This document shows, piece after piece, positions 2,425-9,160 of a stretch of 32,953 nt of DNA. The DNA comes from Clostridia bacterium (lineage in GTDB: Bacteria; Bacillota; Clostridia; Oscillospirales; CAG-272). Made by a program: the position numbers and the translations under genes. A model generated the notes under the pieces. It ran no database searches and had not been told where the DNA came from. It saw only the letters and a list, made by a program, of their open reading frames with translations. The first letter of the stretch is position 1; every line of letters starts with the position of its first letter. The stretch lies in contig JAFSSP010000020.1 in the NCBI GenBank assembly GCA_017450945.1, forward strand, positions 1 through 32,953, read 5' to 3'.

Positions 2425-4101
2425 ATGAATTTTGCAATTGTTTTACAAGCGGTTCTCTCGCTTTTGGCCGGCGTCGGCGTCTTTCTTGTCGCCTGCAAAA
2501 CCATGAGTACAAATCTCGAGTCGGTCAGCAGCAACAAGCTCAAAGCGCTGTTTGCCGGCAGCTCGAAGAACCAGCTCCTCGGCGTCGGCATCGGTGCGGC
2601 CGGCACCGCGCTCATCCAGAGCTCGGGAGCCACGACCGTCATGGTGATCGGTTTTGTCAATGCGGGGATCATGTCGCTCTCGCAGGCCGCGGCCGTGATC
2701 TACGGCGCCAATATCGGTACCACCGTGACAGGTCAGATCGTGGCGCTCGGACTGTTTTCAAGCTCTACCCTTTCGACCACGCTCATCTTCTCGGCCTTCG
2801 CGGGCCTTGGTGCCGTCGTCAGTCTCTTTGCAAAGAAGGATTCGCTCAAGAGGATCTGCGGGATCCTTGCCGGATTCGGTATGCTCTTTATCGGTATTTC
2901 GATGATGAGTTCGGCCATGGAGATCTTTGCCGCCGACGAAACGGTCAAGAGCTTTATCGCCTCGATCTCGAATCCATTTTTGCTCCTTTTGCTCGGACTT
3001 TTTCTGACCGCATTGGTGCAAAGCTCCTCGGTTATGACCTCGATCGCCATCGCCATGGCGGTCTCGGGACTCATCACCACAGGGCAAGGCATCTATCTCA
3101 TAATGGGATCGAATATCGGCGCCTGCGTGGTCGCGCTCCTTGCCGGACTTTCTGGAACAAAGAATGCAAAAAGAACCGCGCTCATGCCGCTTATCTTCAA
3201 CCTCTTCGGCGCGCTCGTCTTTCTCGGGATCGAAGGGATCCTATTCCTTGCTTTTGGCGAAAATGGTACCTACGCCTCGCTCTTTGCGCGTCTCTTCCCG
3301 GATCTTCCGCAAACCCAGCTTGCCATGTTCCACACAGCATTCAATCTCGGAAAAACGCTTCTCTTCTTGCCGCTGACAAAAGCGCTGGTTGCCCTGGTGA
3401 AAAAGCTGGTACCGGGCAAAGACCGGGCCGACGAGGAAGCGCCGCACTTTTACTTTGTGGACGAGAACCTTCTCCGCACCCCTGCCGTGGCCGTGGGACA
3501 GGTCAAAAATGAGATCCTCAACATGGCAAAGATCGCGCTCGACAATTTTGTAATCTCCTGCGATATCGCCGCAACGCTCGATTATTCCAAAGAGGAAGAC
3601 TTCCGCAGATCCGAGCGTGAACTCAACTTTCTCAACCGCGAGCTGGTCGTCTTCATTCAGAAGGTCGCAGACCACAACATCAGCGAAAAGGATCGCCGCT
3701 ATCTTTCTTCGGCCTACCGGACGGTGGCAGACCTGGAACGCGTGGGCGACTATGCCGAAAACATCATCGAATACGCAGACGAACTGAAAAAGCACGGCGA
3801 GCATTTTTCCGAGAGCGCGGTCAGAGAGATCAAAGAAGTTCGCGACCTCGTCGTCTGCCTCTCGGAACACACCGTAAACGCCTACAAAGACGGAAACAAA
3901 GAGGAGATCTCCATTGCGGAGATTTTTGAAGAGCAGGTGGACGAGCTGACCGACCGGATGGCCGAGAACCACGTCACGCGCCTCGACCGCGGAGCCTGCA
4001 CGCCGAACGCGGGCGCGCAGTATCTCTCGCTTGCATCCGATGCCGAGCGCGTTGCCGACCATTTTATGAACATGGCAAACGCAACCAAATATTTTTCTTG
4101 A
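2425..4101 (+). CDS. Na+/phosphate symporter family protein (NptA/PNaS type) with C-terminal PhoU-like domain
   Basis: Predicted inner-membrane protein coupling sodium to inorganic phosphate uptake. The 558-residue product has two inverted membrane repeats, each with the family signature: ALIQSSGATTVM (about 62-73) and ALVQSSSVMTSI, plus a GANIGTTVTGQ segment after the first and GSNIGACVVALLAG after the second. From about residue 340 it is hydrophilic and helical like PhoU (for example AYRTVADLERVGDYAENI). The ATG at 2425 follows a purine-rich stretch. The gene stands alone between its own promoter and the hairpin region after 4101. Transport substrate is inferred from the family; no phosphate-responsive site was recognised. 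Confidence 0.92.
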   Translation: MNFAIVLQAVLSLLAGVGVFLVACKTMSTNLESVSSNKLKALFAGSSKNQLLGVGIGAAGTALIQSSGATTVMVIGFVNAGIMSLSQAAAVIYGANIGTTVTGQIVALGLFSSSTLSTTLIFSAFAGLGAVVSLFAKKDSLKRICGILAGFGMLFIGISMMSSAMEIFAADETVKSFIASISNPFLLLLLGLFLTALVQSSSVMTSIAIAMAVSGLITTGQGIYLIMGSNIGACVVALLAGLSGTKNAKRTALMPLIFNLFGALVFLGIEGILFLAFGENGTYASLFARLFPDLPQTQLAMFHTAFNLGKTLLFLPLTKALVALVKKLVPGKDRADEEAPHFYFVDENLLRTPAVAVGQVKNEILNMAKIALDNFVISCDIAATLDYSKEEDFRRSERELNFLNRELVVFIQKVADHNISEKDRRYLSSAYRTVADLERVGDYAENIIEYADELKKHGEHFSESAVREIKEVRDLVVCLSEHTVNAYKDGNKEEISIAEIFEEQVDELTDRMAENHVTRLDRGACTPNAGAQYLSLASDAERVADHFMNMANATKYFS

Positions 4102-4132
4102 GGATCCAAACAGCAAAAAAAGAAGAGGGTAA

Positions 4133-4342
4133 GCCGCAATTCCCATAGGGAATTGCGGCAACGAATTCAATCCTTGCGGATTGGCGAAAACCGACCGACG
4201 GTCGGGCGATATTGCCTTGCGGCAGCGATATTTGCCTTACGGCAAGTGAAGGATCAATTTCATATCGCTTGTAAACATGGTTTACAAATATCGCGCAAAG
4301 CATTTTGCATATCGCTTTCAGCTTGCAAGCTGAAATATCGTC
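4133..4342. repeat. Array of hairpins joined by 7-nt linkers (GCGATAT / ATATCGC), dyad-symmetric
   Basis: Hairpins lie at 4133-4159 (12-bp stem, 3-nt loop), 4168-4183, 4191-4205, 4213-4224, 4232-4245, 4269-4287 (8 bp), 4295-4308 and 4316-4335 (a 20-nt perfect palindrome). From 4206 on they abut a 7-nt unit: GCGATAT at 4206 and 4225, then its reverse complement ATATCGC at 4262, 4288 and 4309, with a partial copy at 4335. The earlier linkers GCGAAAA (4184) and AACGAATT (4160) look like decayed versions. The symmetry centre is in 4246-4261. No protein-coding signal fits. This accounts for most of the 470-nt gene-free stretch 4102-4571. Function unknown; it resembles a compound palindromic intergenic repeat. 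Confidence 0.9.
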
Positions 4343-4363
4343 TTTCCCTTGTGGATAAAAGAA

Positions 4364-4418
4364 AGCGCACTCTATTTCACAATCGTGAAGTATAGTGCGC
4401 TATACTTTTAGCTTTTTT
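4364..4418 (+). terminator. Possible terminator after the symporter gene, with two overlapping hairpins
   Basis: Arms 4364-4380 and 4385-4401 form a 17-bp stem with one mismatch and one G-U pair around a 4-nt loop. A second hairpin, GTATAG (4390-4395) with CTATAC (4400-4405), uses part of the same sequence and is followed by CTTTTAGCTTTTTTC. The T-rich tail suggests termination of plus-strand transcripts, but the distance from the stop at 4101 is large and the tail is interrupted. Confidence 0.4.
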
Positions 4419-4419
4419 C

Positions 4420-4444
4420 AAAATTCCTATGGAACTTACGGTAA
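4420..4444 (+). repeat. 25-nt direct repeat, left copy
   Basis: AAAAT, then T, then CCTATGGAACTTACGGTAA. The same 25 nt with one change (C for T at position 6) occurs at 6293-6317 in the same orientation. The two copies bracket the permease unit with its promoter, leader and terminator. The sequence itself contains two small inverted repeats, TTCC-TAT-GGAA and CTTAC-G-GTAAG. Confidence 0.85.
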
Positions 4445-4504
4445 GCAGTGGGTTCAACAGAGATTTTCAAAGAACAAAAATGAATAGAATCTGTGTGGTT
4501 AAAT

Positions 4505-4539
4505 AAAAAAGGATTGGAATAGATTTCCAATCCTTTTTT
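4505..4539. terminator. Intrinsic terminator of the permease gene (bidirectional in form)
   Basis: Stem GGATTGGAA (4511-4519) with TTCCAATCC (4525-4533), loop of 5 nt, A-run on the left and T-run on the right, so it would work on either strand. It lies 33 nt past the permease stop codon. Nothing else recognisable is present in 4445-4504. Confidence 0.88.
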
Positions 4540-4571
4540 ATTATCTATTCAATCTGCTTACTTGTTTGTTT

Positions 4572-5993
4572 TTATGTTTTCTTTTTTGAAGACAAAACGA
4601 TATTGGCAATAATCCCAAGGATGAGTGCGGTTGCGATTTCCGTAAGGGTGACCGCTCCTATCGTCAACTCCAACCCCCCTATGCCGACAATCAATATTGT
4701 CGATACTACGTAAAGATTTTTATTCTTGTTCAAATCGACCGACTGAATCATTTTCAGACCGCTGACGGCAATAAATCCGTACAGCGCAATGCAAACACCG
4801 CCCATCACGCACGGAGGGATCGAATCCACAAACGCGACAACAGGTGTTAAGAAGGAAGATAAGATACAAAATATCGCCGTTGTGAAAATCGTTGCGATAG
4901 AGGCATTTCCGGTCAAGGCAACACAAGCGACAGATTCTCCGTAAGTTGTATTGGGACAGCCGCCGAAGAACGCGCCTACGGCTGATCCCACGCCGTCGCC
5001 GAAAAGCGTTCTGTGCAAACCGGGATCTTCCAATAATTCGTGACCGATTATGGAAGAAAGATTTTTATGGTCGGCGATATGTTCGGTAAAGGCAACGAAA
5101 GCGACCGGAACGTAAGCGACAAAAACAGTCAAAACATAACTCCATGAAAGTTCATTCAAAGCTCCGAAAGCTTTCAAAAAAGTCATTTCGGGAACACTTA
5201 AAAATGTTTTTATTGAGAACCCGTCTGCAAGCATATACTTCGGGAAAACGCTGAAATCAATGATTTTCAAAGCGTCTATATCGTTGAGAAATCCGATCCC
5301 GGATAAAACAGCCGCAACCGCATATCCGGAGAGTATTCCGATAATGAACGGGATCGATCTGATCATTTTCTTGCCGAAGGTTGAGCAAATCATAGTTACA
5401 AATAATGTAATTAAACCGCATAGCAGGGCGATCCACGGAGAGCCGATCATTTGTGAGCCGATCTGTTCAACGATTTCCGGCGTACCGTTTGCCAAAGATA
5501 CGGAATACTCTGTGATTTCTTGAACGACGTCTCCTCTGACGATATCGGATATCGCGCTGCCCGCAAGCGAAAGCCCGATAATTGCTACCGTAGGTCCTAT
5601 GACGACCGCCGGCATCAGGCGATTAAGCCATTTTATGCCTGCAAATTTAACGATAATTCCGAGAATAACGTACACAAGTCCGGCAAAAGCCGCGCCGATT
5701 ATAAGACCGAGCCAACCGAGCGACATAGACACGCCTCCGGCGAAAGCCGCAAGCATTGATTTGATAAAAGCGAAAGAGGAACCGACAAAAACCGGACTCT
5801 TTCGCCTTGTTATCAAAATGTAAACAATGGTACCGACACCTGCACCGAGCATAGCGGCGGCAGGAGAGAGCCCATGTCCTACTATCATGGGAACGGCTAT
5901 AGTTGCCGCCATGATCGCCAACATTTGCTGAAATGCAAACGCCAGCAGTTGTTTGAATTTTGGCTTGTCAGCCACGTCAAAATAGAGTTTCAT
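4572..5993 (-). CDS. Uracil/xanthine permease family protein (UraA-like, NCS2)
   Basis: Predicted membrane importer of a nucleobase with protons, about 14 membrane segments in 473 residues, the normal NCS2 length. The family's two key glutamates are present: E304 in FTEHIADH and E353 in GCPNTTYGES; the segment LLEDPGLHRTLFGDGVGSA is typical of the UraA branch, so uracil is the most likely substrate, xanthine less likely. ATG at 5993 with GGAG upstream. It stands alone, with its own near-perfect promoter, a leader with an internal terminator, and a downstream terminator. By eye it uses more ATA and other A/T-ending codons than its neighbours, and it is bracketed by 25-nt direct repeats, which suggests recent arrival. 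Confidence 0.85.
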   Translation of the reverse strand: MKLYFDVADKPKFKQLLAFAFQQMLAIMAATIAVPMIVGHGLSPAAAMLGAGVGTIVYILITRRKSPVFVGSSFAFIKSMLAAFAGGVSMSLGWLGLIIGAAFAGLVYVILGIIVKFAGIKWLNRLMPAVVIGPTVAIIGLSLAGSAISDIVRGDVVQEITEYSVSLANGTPEIVEQIGSQMIGSPWIALLCGLITLFVTMICSTFGKKMIRSIPFIIGILSGYAVAAVLSGIGFLNDIDALKIIDFSVFPKYMLADGFSIKTFLSVPEMTFLKAFGALNELSWSYVLTVFVAYVPVAFVAFTEHIADHKNLSSIIGHELLEDPGLHRTLFGDGVGSAVGAFFGGCPNTTYGESVACVALTGNASIATIFTTAIFCILSSFLTPVVAFVDSIPPCVMGGVCIALYGFIAVSGLKMIQSVDLNKNKNLYVVSTILIVGIGGLELTIGAVTLTEIATALILGIIANIVLSSKKKT

Positions 5994-6112
5994 ACCTTTT
6001 TCTCCTTTTCTCAGGGCACAAAAAAAGCCACATACCGTTTGGTATGTGACGAAAAATGAATCCGCGATTCCGAAAAATTCACATGAATTTTGAGCCCTAT
6101 TAATTTTTTTAT
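5994..6112 (-). promoter_or_regulatory. Structured leader / attenuator of the permease gene
   Basis: About 110 nt of untranslated RNA between promoter and start codon. Reading the minus strand, in order: AGGGC (6098-6094); hairpin with arms 6091-6084 and 6081-6074; hairpin GAATC-GCG-GATTC (6070-6058); terminator hairpin 6050-6027 with T-run; then GCCCT (6017-6013), complementary to the opening AGGGC. ATGTGA (6084-6079) in the first hairpin can instead pair with TCACAT (6049-6044) in the terminator's 5' arm. That gives the three-way competition expected of attenuation. No PyrR site and no purine riboswitch core was found, so the effector is unknown. Confidence 0.6.
6020..6050 (-). terminator. 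Intrinsic terminator inside the permease leader
   Basis: Minus strand: stem GTCACATACC / GGTATGTGGC (one G-C-compatible mispair at the base), 4-nt loop, then seven T. It ends 26 nt before the permease start codon, so it must be read through for expression. Confidence 0.85.
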
Positions 6113-6141
6113 ATTATACCATCCTGTTTTTGCTTTGTCAA
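6113..6141 (-). promoter_or_regulatory. Consensus sigma-A promoter of the permease gene
   Basis: Minus strand: -35 TTGACA (6136-6141), 17-nt spacer, -10 TATAAT (6113-6118). All twelve hexamer bases match the consensus, which fits a gene controlled after initiation by the leader. Confidence 0.95.
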
Positions 6142-6232
6142 TAGGTTTTTTGATTTTTTATTGAATAAAGTACTCACTATACTATACTCGCAATGCGTGA
6201 GGCCTTGCGAGGCTTTGCTCGCATCTGGCGGC

Positions 6233-6268
6233 AAAAAGCGCAGGCGTGGCTTTACGCCACGCCTGTGC
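6233..6268 (-). terminator. Intrinsic terminator of the ispH-rpsA operon
   Basis: Minus strand: 13-bp stem (core CAGGCGTGGC / GCCACGCCTG, 6241-6265, extended to 6238-6268 with one G-U), 5-nt loop, then TTTTT at 6237-6233. It lies 77 nt past the stop of the IspH-S1 gene. An outer GGCGGC (6227-6232) / GCCGCC (6280-6285) pair can enclose it. Between 6175 and 6223 there are further short overlapping hairpins (for example TGCGAG 6206-6211 with CTCGCA 6218-6223) with no assigned role. Confidence 0.8.
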
Positions 6269-6292
6269 TCCATTGATCGGCCGCCTTACCGA

Positions 6293-6317
6293 AAAATCCC
6301 TATGGAACTTACGGTAA
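6293..6317 (+). repeat. 25-nt direct repeat, right copy
   Basis: AAAAT, then C, then CCTATGGAACTTACGGTAA. It matches 4420-4444 at 24 of 25 positions, same orientation. It lies between the operon terminator at 6233-6268 and the stop of the IspH-S1 gene at 6345. Confidence 0.85.
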
Positions 6318-6344
6318 CTTCCCTCTTCTTTTTGTTTGATTCAA

Positions 6345-8486
6345 TCAAGCTTCTTCCGTCGGAGCTTCCTCTGCGGGAGCGGCTTTCTTTCTGGTGCGAG
6401 GCTTCTTGACAGGAGCTTCCTCAGCGGGAGCGGCTTCTTCGACAGGAGCAACTTCCTCTGCGGGAGCGGCTGCTTCAGCAGGAGCTTCCTCGGCAACTTC
6501 TTCGGGTGCTGCTTCGGCTGCGGCCTGAGCTTCCTCAAGCAGCGAGCGGATCGAAAGGCTGACCTTCTTCTTTTCGTCGTCGATCTCGGTGATGCGGGCG
6601 TCTACGACCTGGCCGATCTCAAGAATGTCGGCGGGCTTTGCAATGCGCTGCATCGCGATCTGAGAAATGTGAATGAGTCCATCCACGCCGTCAATAATCT
6701 CGGCAAATGCGCCGAACGGCATCATGTTGACGATCTTGACCGAAACGATGTCGCCGACTGCATACTGAGACTTGAAGATGTTCCAGGGATTGGATTCCTC
6801 GGTCTTGTATCCGAGAGAAATGCGCTTCTTTTCGGGATCAAAGCTCTTGACAAACACGGTGATGTTCTGTCCGACCGAAACCACGTCGGCGGGAGATTTG
6901 ATGTGCTTCCAAGAAAGCTCGCTCATGTGAACCATGCCGTCCACACCGCCGAGATCCACGAAAGCGCCATAGCTCGTCAGGCTCTTGACAACGCCGTTAT
7001 AAACCTTGCCGACCTCGATCTCATCCCAAAAAGCGGCTTCCTGTGCGCGGCGAGCGTCGCGGAGCACCGAACGGATCGAGCCGATGGCCTTTTTGCCGGG
7101 CTTGACTTCGATCACACGGAACTGAACCGTGGTTCCGACCAGAGTGGAGAGATCCCCATCCTTCGGAACGCCGGTCTGAGAACCGGGGACGAACACGCGG
7201 TTGCCGTTTGCAAGAATGACCACGCCGCCCTTGACAGCCTCGGTCACTTTGCCTTCAAGCACGGTCTTTTCGTCGCAGGCCGCGACGATGGTGAACCAGT
7301 TTTTGTCTGCGTCCACTCTCTTTTTGGAAAGTTCCGCAACGCCTTCAATGTCGCTGACGCGAATGACGAAGGCTTCGACTTCATCGCCGTTCTTGAAGTT
7401 CTCGGTGAGTTTGAAGGCCGGGTCATCAGAAATCTGTTCGGCTTTGATGTAGCCTGTGACCCCGGCGCCCACGTCGAGCTGAAGTTCAGCATCGGTTACG
7501 TGCGTAACGGTTCCGGTAACGACATCTCCTGTATTTAAAGTTTTGCATTGCGATTCCAGCAGTTCTTCGAAATTTTCTTTCATTTCGCTCATGGTTGTAT
7601 ATACCTCCTGTATTTCGACGCTCGGAGTCGAAGCCCCGGCGACAATACCTAATTTTTCGGTCTTGGAAAAATGCTTCGGATCAAGCTCGGAAGCGTTTGT
7701 AATCCAGACCGTATCCCGGCAGTGCTCGCGGCAGATATCATAGAGCTTTGCAGTGTTGGAGCTCTCCTTGCCGCCGATGACGATCATGCCGTCGCACAGG
7801 GTCGCAAGCTCCTTTGCTTCTTTCTGCCGAAGCTCAGTCACGCTACATATTGTATCAAAAATAACGAAATTTGTATAGTGGTTTTTCAGATTTTTTTGAC
7901 TTTGGTACCAATTGACCAAATTAAAGGTGGTTTGAGAGGCCATTACCGGCGTTTTTTTGTGCAACTTGTCCTTTTGCGTGCCGGAAAGGGTCGATTCAAG
8001 CGATTCGGGAGAAGAAAAAACGTACTTTTCTCCGTCGAAAAAGCTCATGATGCCGACCACCTCGGGATGGTTCTCGGCACCCATGAGGAAAAACACCTGA
8101 TTTTCGGGATCGCATTCGGATGCGATCTTGTGAACCTTTTTGACATACGGGCAGGTGCAATCGTACCAGGTAAAATGCGGATTCTGCTCGGACAGTGAGC
8201 GGAGCGCCTCATAGGTCTCGCGCTTGCAGCCGTGGGCGCGTACCAAAAGAGAGACCGGCGACGCTTCTGTGGCGCTTTGCGCAAGCGCGGGAAGCTCCTC
8301 TGCGTCAACGGCGATCACGCCGCGGCGGCGCAAAGATTCAATATAGGTCTCGTTGTGGATGAGGTTGCCGAGCGTGTAGATCCGCTCGCCCGGGCGCGCG
8401 CTCCCGAGAAGCTCCTCCAGCTTGTCGGTCGCCCGCTTGACGCCAAAGCAAAAGCCGGCGTTCTCGGCCAGAATGACTGTTTTCAT
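6345..8486 (-). CDS. Fused 4-hydroxy-3-methylbut-2-enyl diphosphate reductase / ribosomal protein S1
   Basis: 713 residues. Residues 1-310 are IspH, the last enzyme of the MEP isoprenoid pathway; the three 4Fe-4S cysteines are C13 (GFCFGV), C112 (CTCPYV) and C214 (DTICSVT), and SQTTF, GGKESSNT and AGASTP are present. From about 317 come four S1 RNA-binding repeats, the clearest being SYGAFVDLGGVDGMVHMSEL and the one after it. Residues from about 650 form an Ala/Glu/Pro-rich tail with one basic patch (KKPRTRKK). The start at 8486 is preferred over the longer frame because it opens with the IspH core and its ATG overlaps the cmk stop (ATGA). The fusion is known in Clostridia; the S1 part probably serves the ribosome. 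Confidence 0.96.
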   Translation of the reverse strand: MKTVILAENAGFCFGVKRATDKLEELLGSARPGERIYTLGNLIHNETYIESLRRRGVIAVDAEELPALAQSATEASPVSLLVRAHGCKRETYEALRSLSEQNPHFTWYDCTCPYVKKVHKIASECDPENQVFFLMGAENHPEVVGIMSFFDGEKYVFSSPESLESTLSGTQKDKLHKKTPVMASQTTFNLVNWYQSQKNLKNHYTNFVIFDTICSVTELRQKEAKELATLCDGMIVIGGKESSNTAKLYDICREHCRDTVWITNASELDPKHFSKTEKLGIVAGASTPSVEIQEVYTTMSEMKENFEELLESQCKTLNTGDVVTGTVTHVTDAELQLDVGAGVTGYIKAEQISDDPAFKLTENFKNGDEVEAFVIRVSDIEGVAELSKKRVDADKNWFTIVAACDEKTVLEGKVTEAVKGGVVILANGNRVFVPGSQTGVPKDGDLSTLVGTTVQFRVIEVKPGKKAIGSIRSVLRDARRAQEAAFWDEIEVGKVYNGVVKSLTSYGAFVDLGGVDGMVHMSELSWKHIKSPADVVSVGQNITVFVKSFDPEKKRISLGYKTEESNPWNIFKSQYAVGDIVSVKIVNMMPFGAFAEIIDGVDGLIHISQIAMQRIAKPADILEIGQVVDARITEIDDEKKKVSLSIRSLLEEAQAAAEAAPEEVAEEAPAEAAAPAEEVAPVEEAAPAEEAPVKKPRTRKKAAPAEEAPTEEA

Positions 8487-9160
8487 AGAGTCAGTCCCAG
8501 TTTGGGGAGAATGATCTTTGAGAGCACCGCGGCGGTACATTCGTCGGGTTTCATCCAGGAGTTATCAAAATGGATCGCGTCGGGTGCGGCGATGGCGGGA
8601 GCAACGGCGCGCGTGCTGTCGTTGTGGTCGCGCTCTCTCATATCGGCAAGCACCTCTTCGACGCTGGTTTCGATCCCCTTTGCCTTCAGTTCTTCATATC
8701 GTCTGGTCGCGCGGCACTCGTCGCTCGCGGTCAGAAAGATCTTGACGTCGGCATCCGGCAGGATCACGGTACCGATATCTCTGCCGTCCATAATCACACT
8801 GCGCTTTTTGGCGATATCTCTCTGCGTATCGAGCAGGAAGGCGCGCACCTCCGGGATCGCCGAGACCGCAGAGGCGTACATGGAGATCTCGGGCGTGCGG
8901 ATCCGATCGCCGAGATTTTCCCCATTGAGCAGGACAACCTGCGTACCGTCCACATAATCGAGATCCACCCGGATCTCGGGAAGAAGCGCCGTGACAGCCG
9001 GGCCGTCCTTGGGGTCGGCGCCCTTTTCCCGCACATCATAGCCTACCGTGCGGTAGAGCGCTCCGGTATCAACGTATGTAATACCGAGCTTTGCGGCAAT
9101 GGCCTTTGCAATGGTGGATTTTCCGGCTCCGCTTGGGCCGTCAATGGCGATCTGAAACAT
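8483..9160 (-). CDS. cmk: Cytidylate kinase
   Basis: Phosphorylates CMP and dCMP with ATP in pyrimidine salvage and recycling. 225 residues, standard length. The P-loop is DGPSGAGKST (residues 7-16), followed by YVDTGALYRTVGY; later come the family segments MDGRDIGTVILPDADVKIFL and RATRRYEELKAKG. The ATG at 9160 lies 4 nt after the flavoprotein stop, and its own stop overlaps the start of the IspH-S1 gene by 4 nt, so translation is tightly coupled. The order flavoprotein, cmk, ispH-rpsA fits clostridial gene neighbourhoods. Confidence 0.97.
   Translation of the reverse strand: MFQIAIDGPSGAGKSTIAKAIAAKLGITYVDTGALYRTVGYDVREKGADPKDGPAVTALLPEIRVDLDYVDGTQVVLLNGENLGDRIRTPEISMYASAVSAIPEVRAFLLDTQRDIAKKRSVIMDGRDIGTVILPDADVKIFLTASDECRATRRYEELKAKGIETSVEEVLADMRERDHNDSTRAVAPAIAAPDAIHFDNSWMKPDECTAAVLSKIILPKLGLTL

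Follow-up and report, generated by a model that had tools for sequence, protein, structure and literature searches.

Introduction

REP and BIME palindromes, with their RAYT transposases, carry a short conserved word on the 5' side of a hairpin, form inverted pairs and occur in many copies, some of which are gene-less. Group IIC introns are known to insert beside terminator hairpins. The intervening sequences of 23S rRNA genes, which are associated with the S23/IVP protein family, have been viewed as selfish and horizontally acquired inserts, and their movement is still treated as a matter of hypotheses (PMC4990558). A further orphan subject is Gut-1 (RF01706), which is filed as an sRNA in Rfam. 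Weinberg et al. 2010 (PMC2864571), who list it solely from sequences of the human gut, considered it likely to be a non-coding RNA. Searches of open-licence PMC text found no publication that links Gut-1 to IVP and to hairpin arrays.

Here we describe a hairpin array from a Clostridia bacterium of the Oscillospirales (CAG-272), lying at positions 4133–4342 of contig JAFSSP010000020.1 (assembly GCA_017450945.1), of which the whole analysed stretch of 32,953 nucleotides is referred to below as the window. The array is like REP/BIME sequences in carrying a word 5' of the hairpin and in its inverted pairs, copy number and gene-less copies; it differs in that its words are 7 nt long and class-specific, with usually three to four units per arm, and in that the Y1 transposase family, missing from the genome of the window, was seen in only 5 of the 13 genomes with arrays that were tested. 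Group IIC introns resemble it in their placement beside terminator hairpins and differ in that the Rfam scans of the window yielded no intron match and reverse transcriptase was missing in 10 of the 13 genomes tested. The 23S rRNA intervening sequences share a protein family with the fuller copies of the array; they differ in that the array lies outside rRNA and forms two arms upstream of the gene, the window copy being gene-less. Finally, Gut-1 resembles the left arm of the window array in its series of hairpins and its GUGAAA-type linkers, although it is a single arm filed as a human-gut sRNA, whereas here the corresponding sequence is half of an inverted pair tied to IVP genes and to terminator-like hairpins.

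We favour, with a probability of roughly 0.6, the reading of the segment as a worn copy, gene-less and non-autonomous, of a small clostridial mobile element with two opposed hairpin arrays. The core consists of two arrays of one oriented unit, in which a hairpin, in many cases with a G..A-type loop, comes after a 7-nt word, and both arrays read outward from a short centre, the left on the bottom strand and the right on the top strand. Fuller copies carry a gene for a four-helix-bundle protein of the IVP family (PF05635) just after the right array, and the element sits beside a hairpin that in several cases appears, by eye, to be a terminator.

The Array in the Window

Direct reading of the sequence confirmed eight hairpins between 4133 and 4342, five on the left and three on the right, which are spaced by linkers of 7 to 8 nt with the sequences given in the initial annotation, the left linkers being approximately the reverse complements of the right ones. 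All array features are given on the forward strand. An outer hairpin of 12 bp (hp0, 4133–4159) adjoins the worn first left linker (L1, AACGAATT, 4160–4167), and the left arm continues through hp1 (CAATCC-TTGC-GGATTG, 4168–4183), a second worn linker L2 (GCGAAAA, 4184–4190), hp2 (4191–4205), L3 (GCGATAT, 4206–4212), hp3 (4213–4224), L4 (GCGATAT, 4225–4231) and hp4 (4232–4245). After the centre (GTGAAGGATCAATTTC, 4246–4261), which is also worn, the right arm comprises R1 (ATATCGC, 4262–4268), hp5 (4269–4287), R2 (ATATCGC, 4288–4294), hp6 (4295–4308), R3 (ATATCGC, 4309–4315), hp7 (4316–4335) and a worn R4 (4336–4342). The alignment of homologues additionally supports L1 and hp1, and word counts support L3, L4 and R1 to R3.

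GCGATAT occurs 15 times in the window on both strands together, five of these within 4206–4315, and in 100 shuffles of the window its mean was 2.99 and its maximum 8. The region 4100–4420 folds with an energy of -127 kcal/mol as RNA (z -9.0) and -80.6 as DNA (z -10.5), and in neither case was the value equalled by any of 100 shuffles. Origin of the array by chance or by decay of a gene, the latter raised at the outset as a ground for discarding the initial reading, along with a lack of further copies or of covariation, was ruled out by the folding relative to shuffles, the GCGATAT excess and the existence of further copies; covariation was found as well. Elsewhere in the window, the sole gathering-level Rfam match is a ribosomal protein L10 leader (RF00557, 27206–27350, forward strand, 55.6 bits).

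Copies, Spread and Conserved Layout

The genome of the window (G000, with the window on contig C11) is a bin of 1.47 Mb that is 84% complete, and all the genomes compared are draft bins in which misassembly at repeats is possible. A pattern of three right linkers was present in 61 of the 395 genomes of the family, its backward control giving four matches over all 395. Up to 52 matches occurred per genome, with several per array, and many congeners had none; some of the matches are chance ones inside genes. Among the matches listed from a collection of named records, those with real arrays are mostly labelled as Clostridia, Oscillospiraceae or Ruminococcaceae bacterium, the listed matches also including chance ones from other phyla. 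The centre pattern found nine stretches in a viral collection, L199 alone being parsed as a full element. The segment is then a real repeated element with many copies in related Clostridia and probably a mobile one, as had been offered as one possibility in the initial annotation. That the window array might be the sole copy in its own genome was considered and rejected: a DNA search of G000 found only the array itself, yet the Gut-1 model gives 10 matches there.

Reading of individual loci revealed a common layout, in which hp0 is followed by L1-hp1-L2-hp2-L3-hp3-L4-hp4, the centre and R1-hp5-R2-hp6-R3-hp7-R4. Four left and four right linkers was the most frequent count (24 of 80 parsed anchors, a set that includes chance anchors without a left linker as well as parser losses). 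The arm parser halts at the first mismatch other than G.T or A.C. For 60 elements with sufficient flanking sequence and at least two left linkers, a stem of at least 7 bp like hp0 of the window lies beside L1 in 54, against 4 of 60 at control positions 45 nt further left and 4 of 60 to the right of the last linker. At several loci hp0 resembles a terminator by eye, sometimes directly after a tRNA. In four genomes the array directly follows a uracil-5-methyltransferase gene (PF05958; L025, L313, L318 and L369), the frame running to 6–14 nt past the start of L1; these were the four confirmed of five candidate loci checked, hp0 of the fifth, L060, not being at the end of the methyltransferase gene.

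Two further features were seen at single loci or small groups of loci. In L139, L305, L371 and L373 an inner module (CTCGCC..GGCGAGATAT) recurs within one hairpin, as if a hairpin had been inserted into a hairpin, and at L009:1400-1460 a distinct repeat-like sequence (CCTCCCCTGTGTAAGGGG...CTGACGGAGGGG) lies immediately left of an array that has only a right arm.

Relationship to Gut-1

The initial annotation knew of no named element with this design; its left arm is in fact matched by Gut-1, below threshold. In a permissive Rfam scan the match spans 4159–4257 on the forward strand with 36.3 bits (E 1.2e-5), against a curated cut-off of 50 bits. The alignment is full-length, covering model positions 1–77 of 77 with three hairpins and GUGAAA-like linkers and with a 22-nt insert that holds hp2. 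When array loci were scanned at the curated threshold, 3 of 20 passed (L410 at 64.8, L390 at 62.3 and L397 at 53.4 bits), L410 belonging to G000. In a permissive scan of 20 loci, a set that overlaps with the first, 11 loci had a Gut-1 match with E no higher than 0.05, none of them reaching 50 bits. Locus L025 is matched on both arms, on opposite strands. Gut-1 matches occur in 40 of 59 genomes of the family, above the cut-off in 33, and in 1 of 14 controls, there below the cut-off; they number 10 in G000 and up to 50 in a single genome (G045).

An alternative explanation is that the left arm is transcribed as a small RNA, Gut-1, whose hairpins would be read by a protein, the right arm being a second, opposed copy. 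Its classification in Rfam and in PMC2864571 suits such a role, as do the three array loci above the cut-off and the copies in G000 that have a left arm only, twice on contig C31 and once on C10. Against it, the matches are repeat-like in number at up to 50 per genome, 1620 of 1650 arm pairs are Watson-Crick and 20 are G.T, and, among the matches listed, opposite-strand neighbours within 160 nt run plus then minus in 8 of 8 cases in hand-picked contigs with at least two listed matches, with three more neighbours on one strand. The Gut-1 model therefore picks up the two halves of a single inverted structure. That the left arm is such an expressed RNA we consider unlikely. At L494 (G000:C31) and L496 (G000:C10) the left-arm-only matches are followed, by eye, by long hairpins in place of the right arm.

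Association with IVP Genes

Fuller copies of the two-armed array carry a gene. In L025, L161, L348, L369 and other loci the gene directly behind the right arm matches an IVP protein by tblastn, and that of L025 belongs to PF05635, the 23S rRNA intervening-sequence protein (E 3.2e-21), and matches PDB 2rld. PF05635 was found in 88 of 146 genomes of the family. For 50 IVP loci of the family, made up of the 30 best matches and 20 picked from the listing, two of them with short upstream sequence, an array was detected within 450 nt upstream in 34; the same detector found arrays in 9 of 1000 shuffles and in 8 of 90 downstream control windows, and the remaining 16 loci had no array in these 450 nt. 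Two word chains were found independently at 25 loci, and at 19 of these they were reverse complements of each other. Between R4 and the gene, several IVP-linked arrays show by eye a promoter-like TTGACA-TATAAT pair.

The single PF05635 match of G000 lies on contig C12 (L410), where the gene has an upstream array; the place of the window array on C11 encodes no IVP. In the set of arrays with the canonical centre, an IVP match was present at the same locus for 6 of 80 anchors, one of them 4.5 kb off on the far side, and therefore most such copies are gene-less. We infer that IVP binds the arrays and that relatives with an IVP gene mobilise the gene-less copies in trans.

Elsewhere in the phylum, an array was present at none of 25 IVP loci tested out of 41 places listed, one of which was that of G000 itself. 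An inverted match of at least 11 nt between the gene flanks was found at 16 of the 25 loci outside the family, a figure that stands without a control. Array-less IVP genes at L382, L384–L386, L389, L460 and L485 are flanked by inverted simple repeats, those of L384 being runs of AATTAGC and GCTAATT, which is an alternative architecture within this gene family. At L399, L406 and L408 the start of the next gene overlaps the IVP gene's end (AAGGAGAATGCAAAATGA), which seemingly supplies the ribosome-binding site of that next gene, as judged by eye. Direct repeats at IVP loci (6 of 46 against 6 of 136 in the control) were set aside, the top score, at L393, being an artefact on a short record.

Insertion Sites and Signs of Movement

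The window array is not located inside a 23S rRNA gene; it lies between a forward-strand Na/Pi cotransporter gene with PhoU domains (2425–4101) and a reverse-strand xanthine/uracil-type permease gene (4572–5993; PF00860, E 2.2e-66), the latter being within the same inserted unit as the array. In a sister species, G026, the orthologous Na/Pi gene, on contig C7, is followed by a whole terminator (AAAAGAAGAGGGATCAATTCCCTCTTCTTTT) without the block and then by an apparent S1 gene. In G000 the halves of this terminator, both on the forward strand, lie at 4115–4129 (AAAAAAAGAAGAGGG) and 6319–6333 (TTCCCTCTTCTTTTT), 2.19 kb apart and split by the insertion, and a LytB-S1 fusion gene follows at 6345–8540 on the reverse strand. 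The block 4131–6308 is also present at G026:C32, with 91% identity and again, by eye, between two terminator halves; there it sits between a zinc-transporter-like gene (PF16916) and the tgt gene (PF01702). Array and permease therefore stand as one unit in different places in the two species.

Flanking duplications were found in two cases, of 21 bp at L322, an element nested in another array, and of 18 bp at L199, which is on a viral contig. In the duplication test on the same 60 elements as were used for hp0, four scored at least 12, two of these adjoining a second copy of the element, against 4 of 295 in the control, and just two of the 60 had clean duplications. Splitting of terminators as a general insertion rule was ruled out by comparing the flanks of 45 elements, for which the mean complementarity of 5.6 was not above the 5.2 of the reversed control; the evidence for a split terminator is therefore confined to the window unit and its counterpart in G026.

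The right end of the unit raises the question of how it was moved. Its motif (TCCCTATGGAACTTACGGTAA, 6297–6317, forward strand), of which an inner copy (TTCCTATGGAACTTACGGTAA) lies at 4424–4444 on the same strand, is found directly after genes for 550-aa serine recombinases (PF00239, PF07508, PF14287) at G000:C5 and G001:C14 and also follows a gene remnant at G000:C27. In this sense the right end of the window unit is that of serine-recombinase elements, and that system may therefore have moved the unit. Array and permease could be cargo of such an element, neither having mobility of its own, which is an explanation that we rate as improbable to about the same degree as the small RNA. The motif, with three mismatches allowed, occurs in only 4 of 35 genomes of the genus, arrays are present in many genera with other flanks, and for the recombinase elements the left end was not found, nor was an array found beside them. 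The unit 4131–6318 contains no recombinase gene, the permease being its sole large gene, and has the right-end motif alone in common with them. As to these elements themselves, the related examples at L458:5665-7922 and L459:5232-7479 are 86.6% identical over 2.27 kb, each has a 550-aa serine recombinase gene, and their shared stretch ends exactly at the right-end motif of the window unit.

Linker Words, Arm Covariation and Polarity

Within the window array the words are repeated while the hairpin arms differ, as had been noticed initially; between copies, words switch on both sides. Most copies carry GCGATAT/ATATCGC, and TCGATAT/ATATCGA is used throughout L369, L346 and L011, L369 having four of each. 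In the G032 copies GTGATGT with CATCAC occurs in three of four left linkers, and the words of IVP-linked arrays include GTGATAT/ATATCAC, GCTAAAT/ATTTAGC, ATGAAGC/GCTTCAT, ATGATG/CATCAT and GTGAAG/CTTCAC.

Homologous copies from G000, G026 and G032 (two) were aligned column by column, giving a thin base of four rows of which two are near-identical, and were scored against a model of the hairpins plus three of the initially proposed linker pairings, or rungs, that of L1 with R4 being left out. Pairing is retained in 96.6% of 291 cells and 12 of 76 pairs are altered on both sides, against 0 or 1 in six slid controls. In the G032 copies two-sided changes affect two pairs each in hp2 and hp7 and one each in hp5 and hp6, which bears out the earlier suggestion that arms evolve by compensation. 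The covariation score (0.221), the cells paired and the cells changed on both sides were each reached by none of 500 column shuffles. The other two of the five measures fail this comparison: the 12 two-sided pairs compare with a shuffle mean of 10.1 (83 of 500 as high), and further pair types number 16 against 20.7 (483 of 500 as high).

The loops are oriented. Those of the left arms are T..C in 133 cases, G..A in 5 and other in 98, and those of the right arms G..A in 57, T..C in none and other in 61; for IVP-linked arrays the corresponding counts are 42, 0 and 22 on the left and 49, 1 and 27 on the right. Loops are thus oriented as well as words, so that in each unit the word and its hairpin point away from the centre.

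This bears on the proposal of the initial annotation that nested linkers, in RNA or in single-stranded DNA, pair as rungs of a fixed ladder with four-way junctions stacked on one another. As it stated, two of the rungs are perfect over 7 bp and the other two have five matches each, by eye; the equal number of four linkers per arm is the commonest, and the RNA minimum-energy fold does pair linkers. The predicted energies for 4130–4345 are -68.7 for the hairpins alone, -82.3 with the two perfect rungs added and -90.6 for the minimum. Each of the three tested rungs shows two two-sided pair changes between G000/G026 and G032, but in 24 fully parsed 4+4 elements, where a linker deviates in 19 of the 96 nested rungs, the partner compensates in 0 of 19. 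The outermost tested rung pairs in only 82% of cells, and unequal arm counts occur, in part through parser losses. The RNA fold joins the linkers in another register than that proposed, 4206–4212 with 4309–4315 and 4225–4231 with 4288–4294, and therefore the register is not fixed. Complementary left and right words are not proof of rungs because one outward unit in two inverted arms gives the same result, and joint switching of all units is likewise accounted for by one repeated unit. A fixed ladder, which fits poorly with the rung deviations and with a loop polarity suited to an inverted oriented unit, we regard as distinctly improbable, more so than the two explanations above; these same tests favour two opposed arrays of one oriented unit, which on the sequence comparisons is probably the best reading.

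The 1650 arm pairs comprise 1620 Watson-Crick, 20 G.T and 10 A.C pairs. G.T pairs are rarer here than would generally be expected under constraint at the RNA level only; the counts of 20 against 10 constitute a weak lean to RNA, although the outer-pair rule of the parser favours G.T. In the favoured reading the arrays would act as DNA folds, either cruciform or single-stranded, rather than mainly as RNA.

The centre has a relationship of its own to the left end. Of 46 elements that have four left linkers, 36 show exact complementarity between the 5' arm of hp1 and the seven bases that precede ATATC in the centre (for example, AAATTCC going with GGAATTT and GAATTCC with GGAATTC). Agreement over the four positions that vary more is 3.78 of 4, with a shuffled maximum of 3.57 in 200. 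Intact copies of the centre thus end in the reverse complement of L1 and the hp1 5' arm, and with the linker included the complementarity extends to about 12 nt. One may speculate, from the sequence alone, that the left end could fold back on the centre as a closing helix or as a primer.

Candidate Enzymes

Two enzyme families were sought in the 13 array-bearing genomes, all incomplete bins. Reverse transcriptase (RVT_1, PF00078) gave matches at E 0.001 in three, above the cut-off in two, and none in ten; Y1_Tnp (PF01797) was present in the five genomes mentioned above, and G000, at its 84% completeness, has no match to either model. With RVT_1 in 2 of 13 and Y1_Tnp in 5 of 13, neither can be a general driver, subject to the incompleteness of the bins, and both were set aside as universal ones. 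It is very improbable that a host reverse transcriptase spreads the element in trans by retrotransposition, with insertion at terminators as for group IIC introns, given the absence of RVT_1 from 10 of the 13 bins, even with the hairpin adjacency, the long flanking duplications in two cases and the resemblance of PF05635 to Avd, the reverse transcriptase partner in diversity-generating retroelements (PMC10053308), in its favour.

Implications

A wider and more tentative proposal, which we hold to be possible and somewhat less likely than its opposite, is that IVP/S23 proteins are dedicated partners of tiny mobile elements with two-armed, oriented DNA hairpin arrays, that Gut-1 is one arm of such an element, that elements of the same kind insert in 23S rRNA genes, and that no reverse transcriptase or known transposase of their own would be needed. 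This would join two orphan subjects, Gut-1, an Rfam RNA of no known function, and the rRNA-insertion protein family, and it offers a concrete protein-nucleic acid pair for testing, namely IVP and the array. It also suggests that Gut-1, a catalogued sRNA, belongs to a mobile DNA repeat as one of its two arms, and that covarying arms by themselves need not imply RNA.
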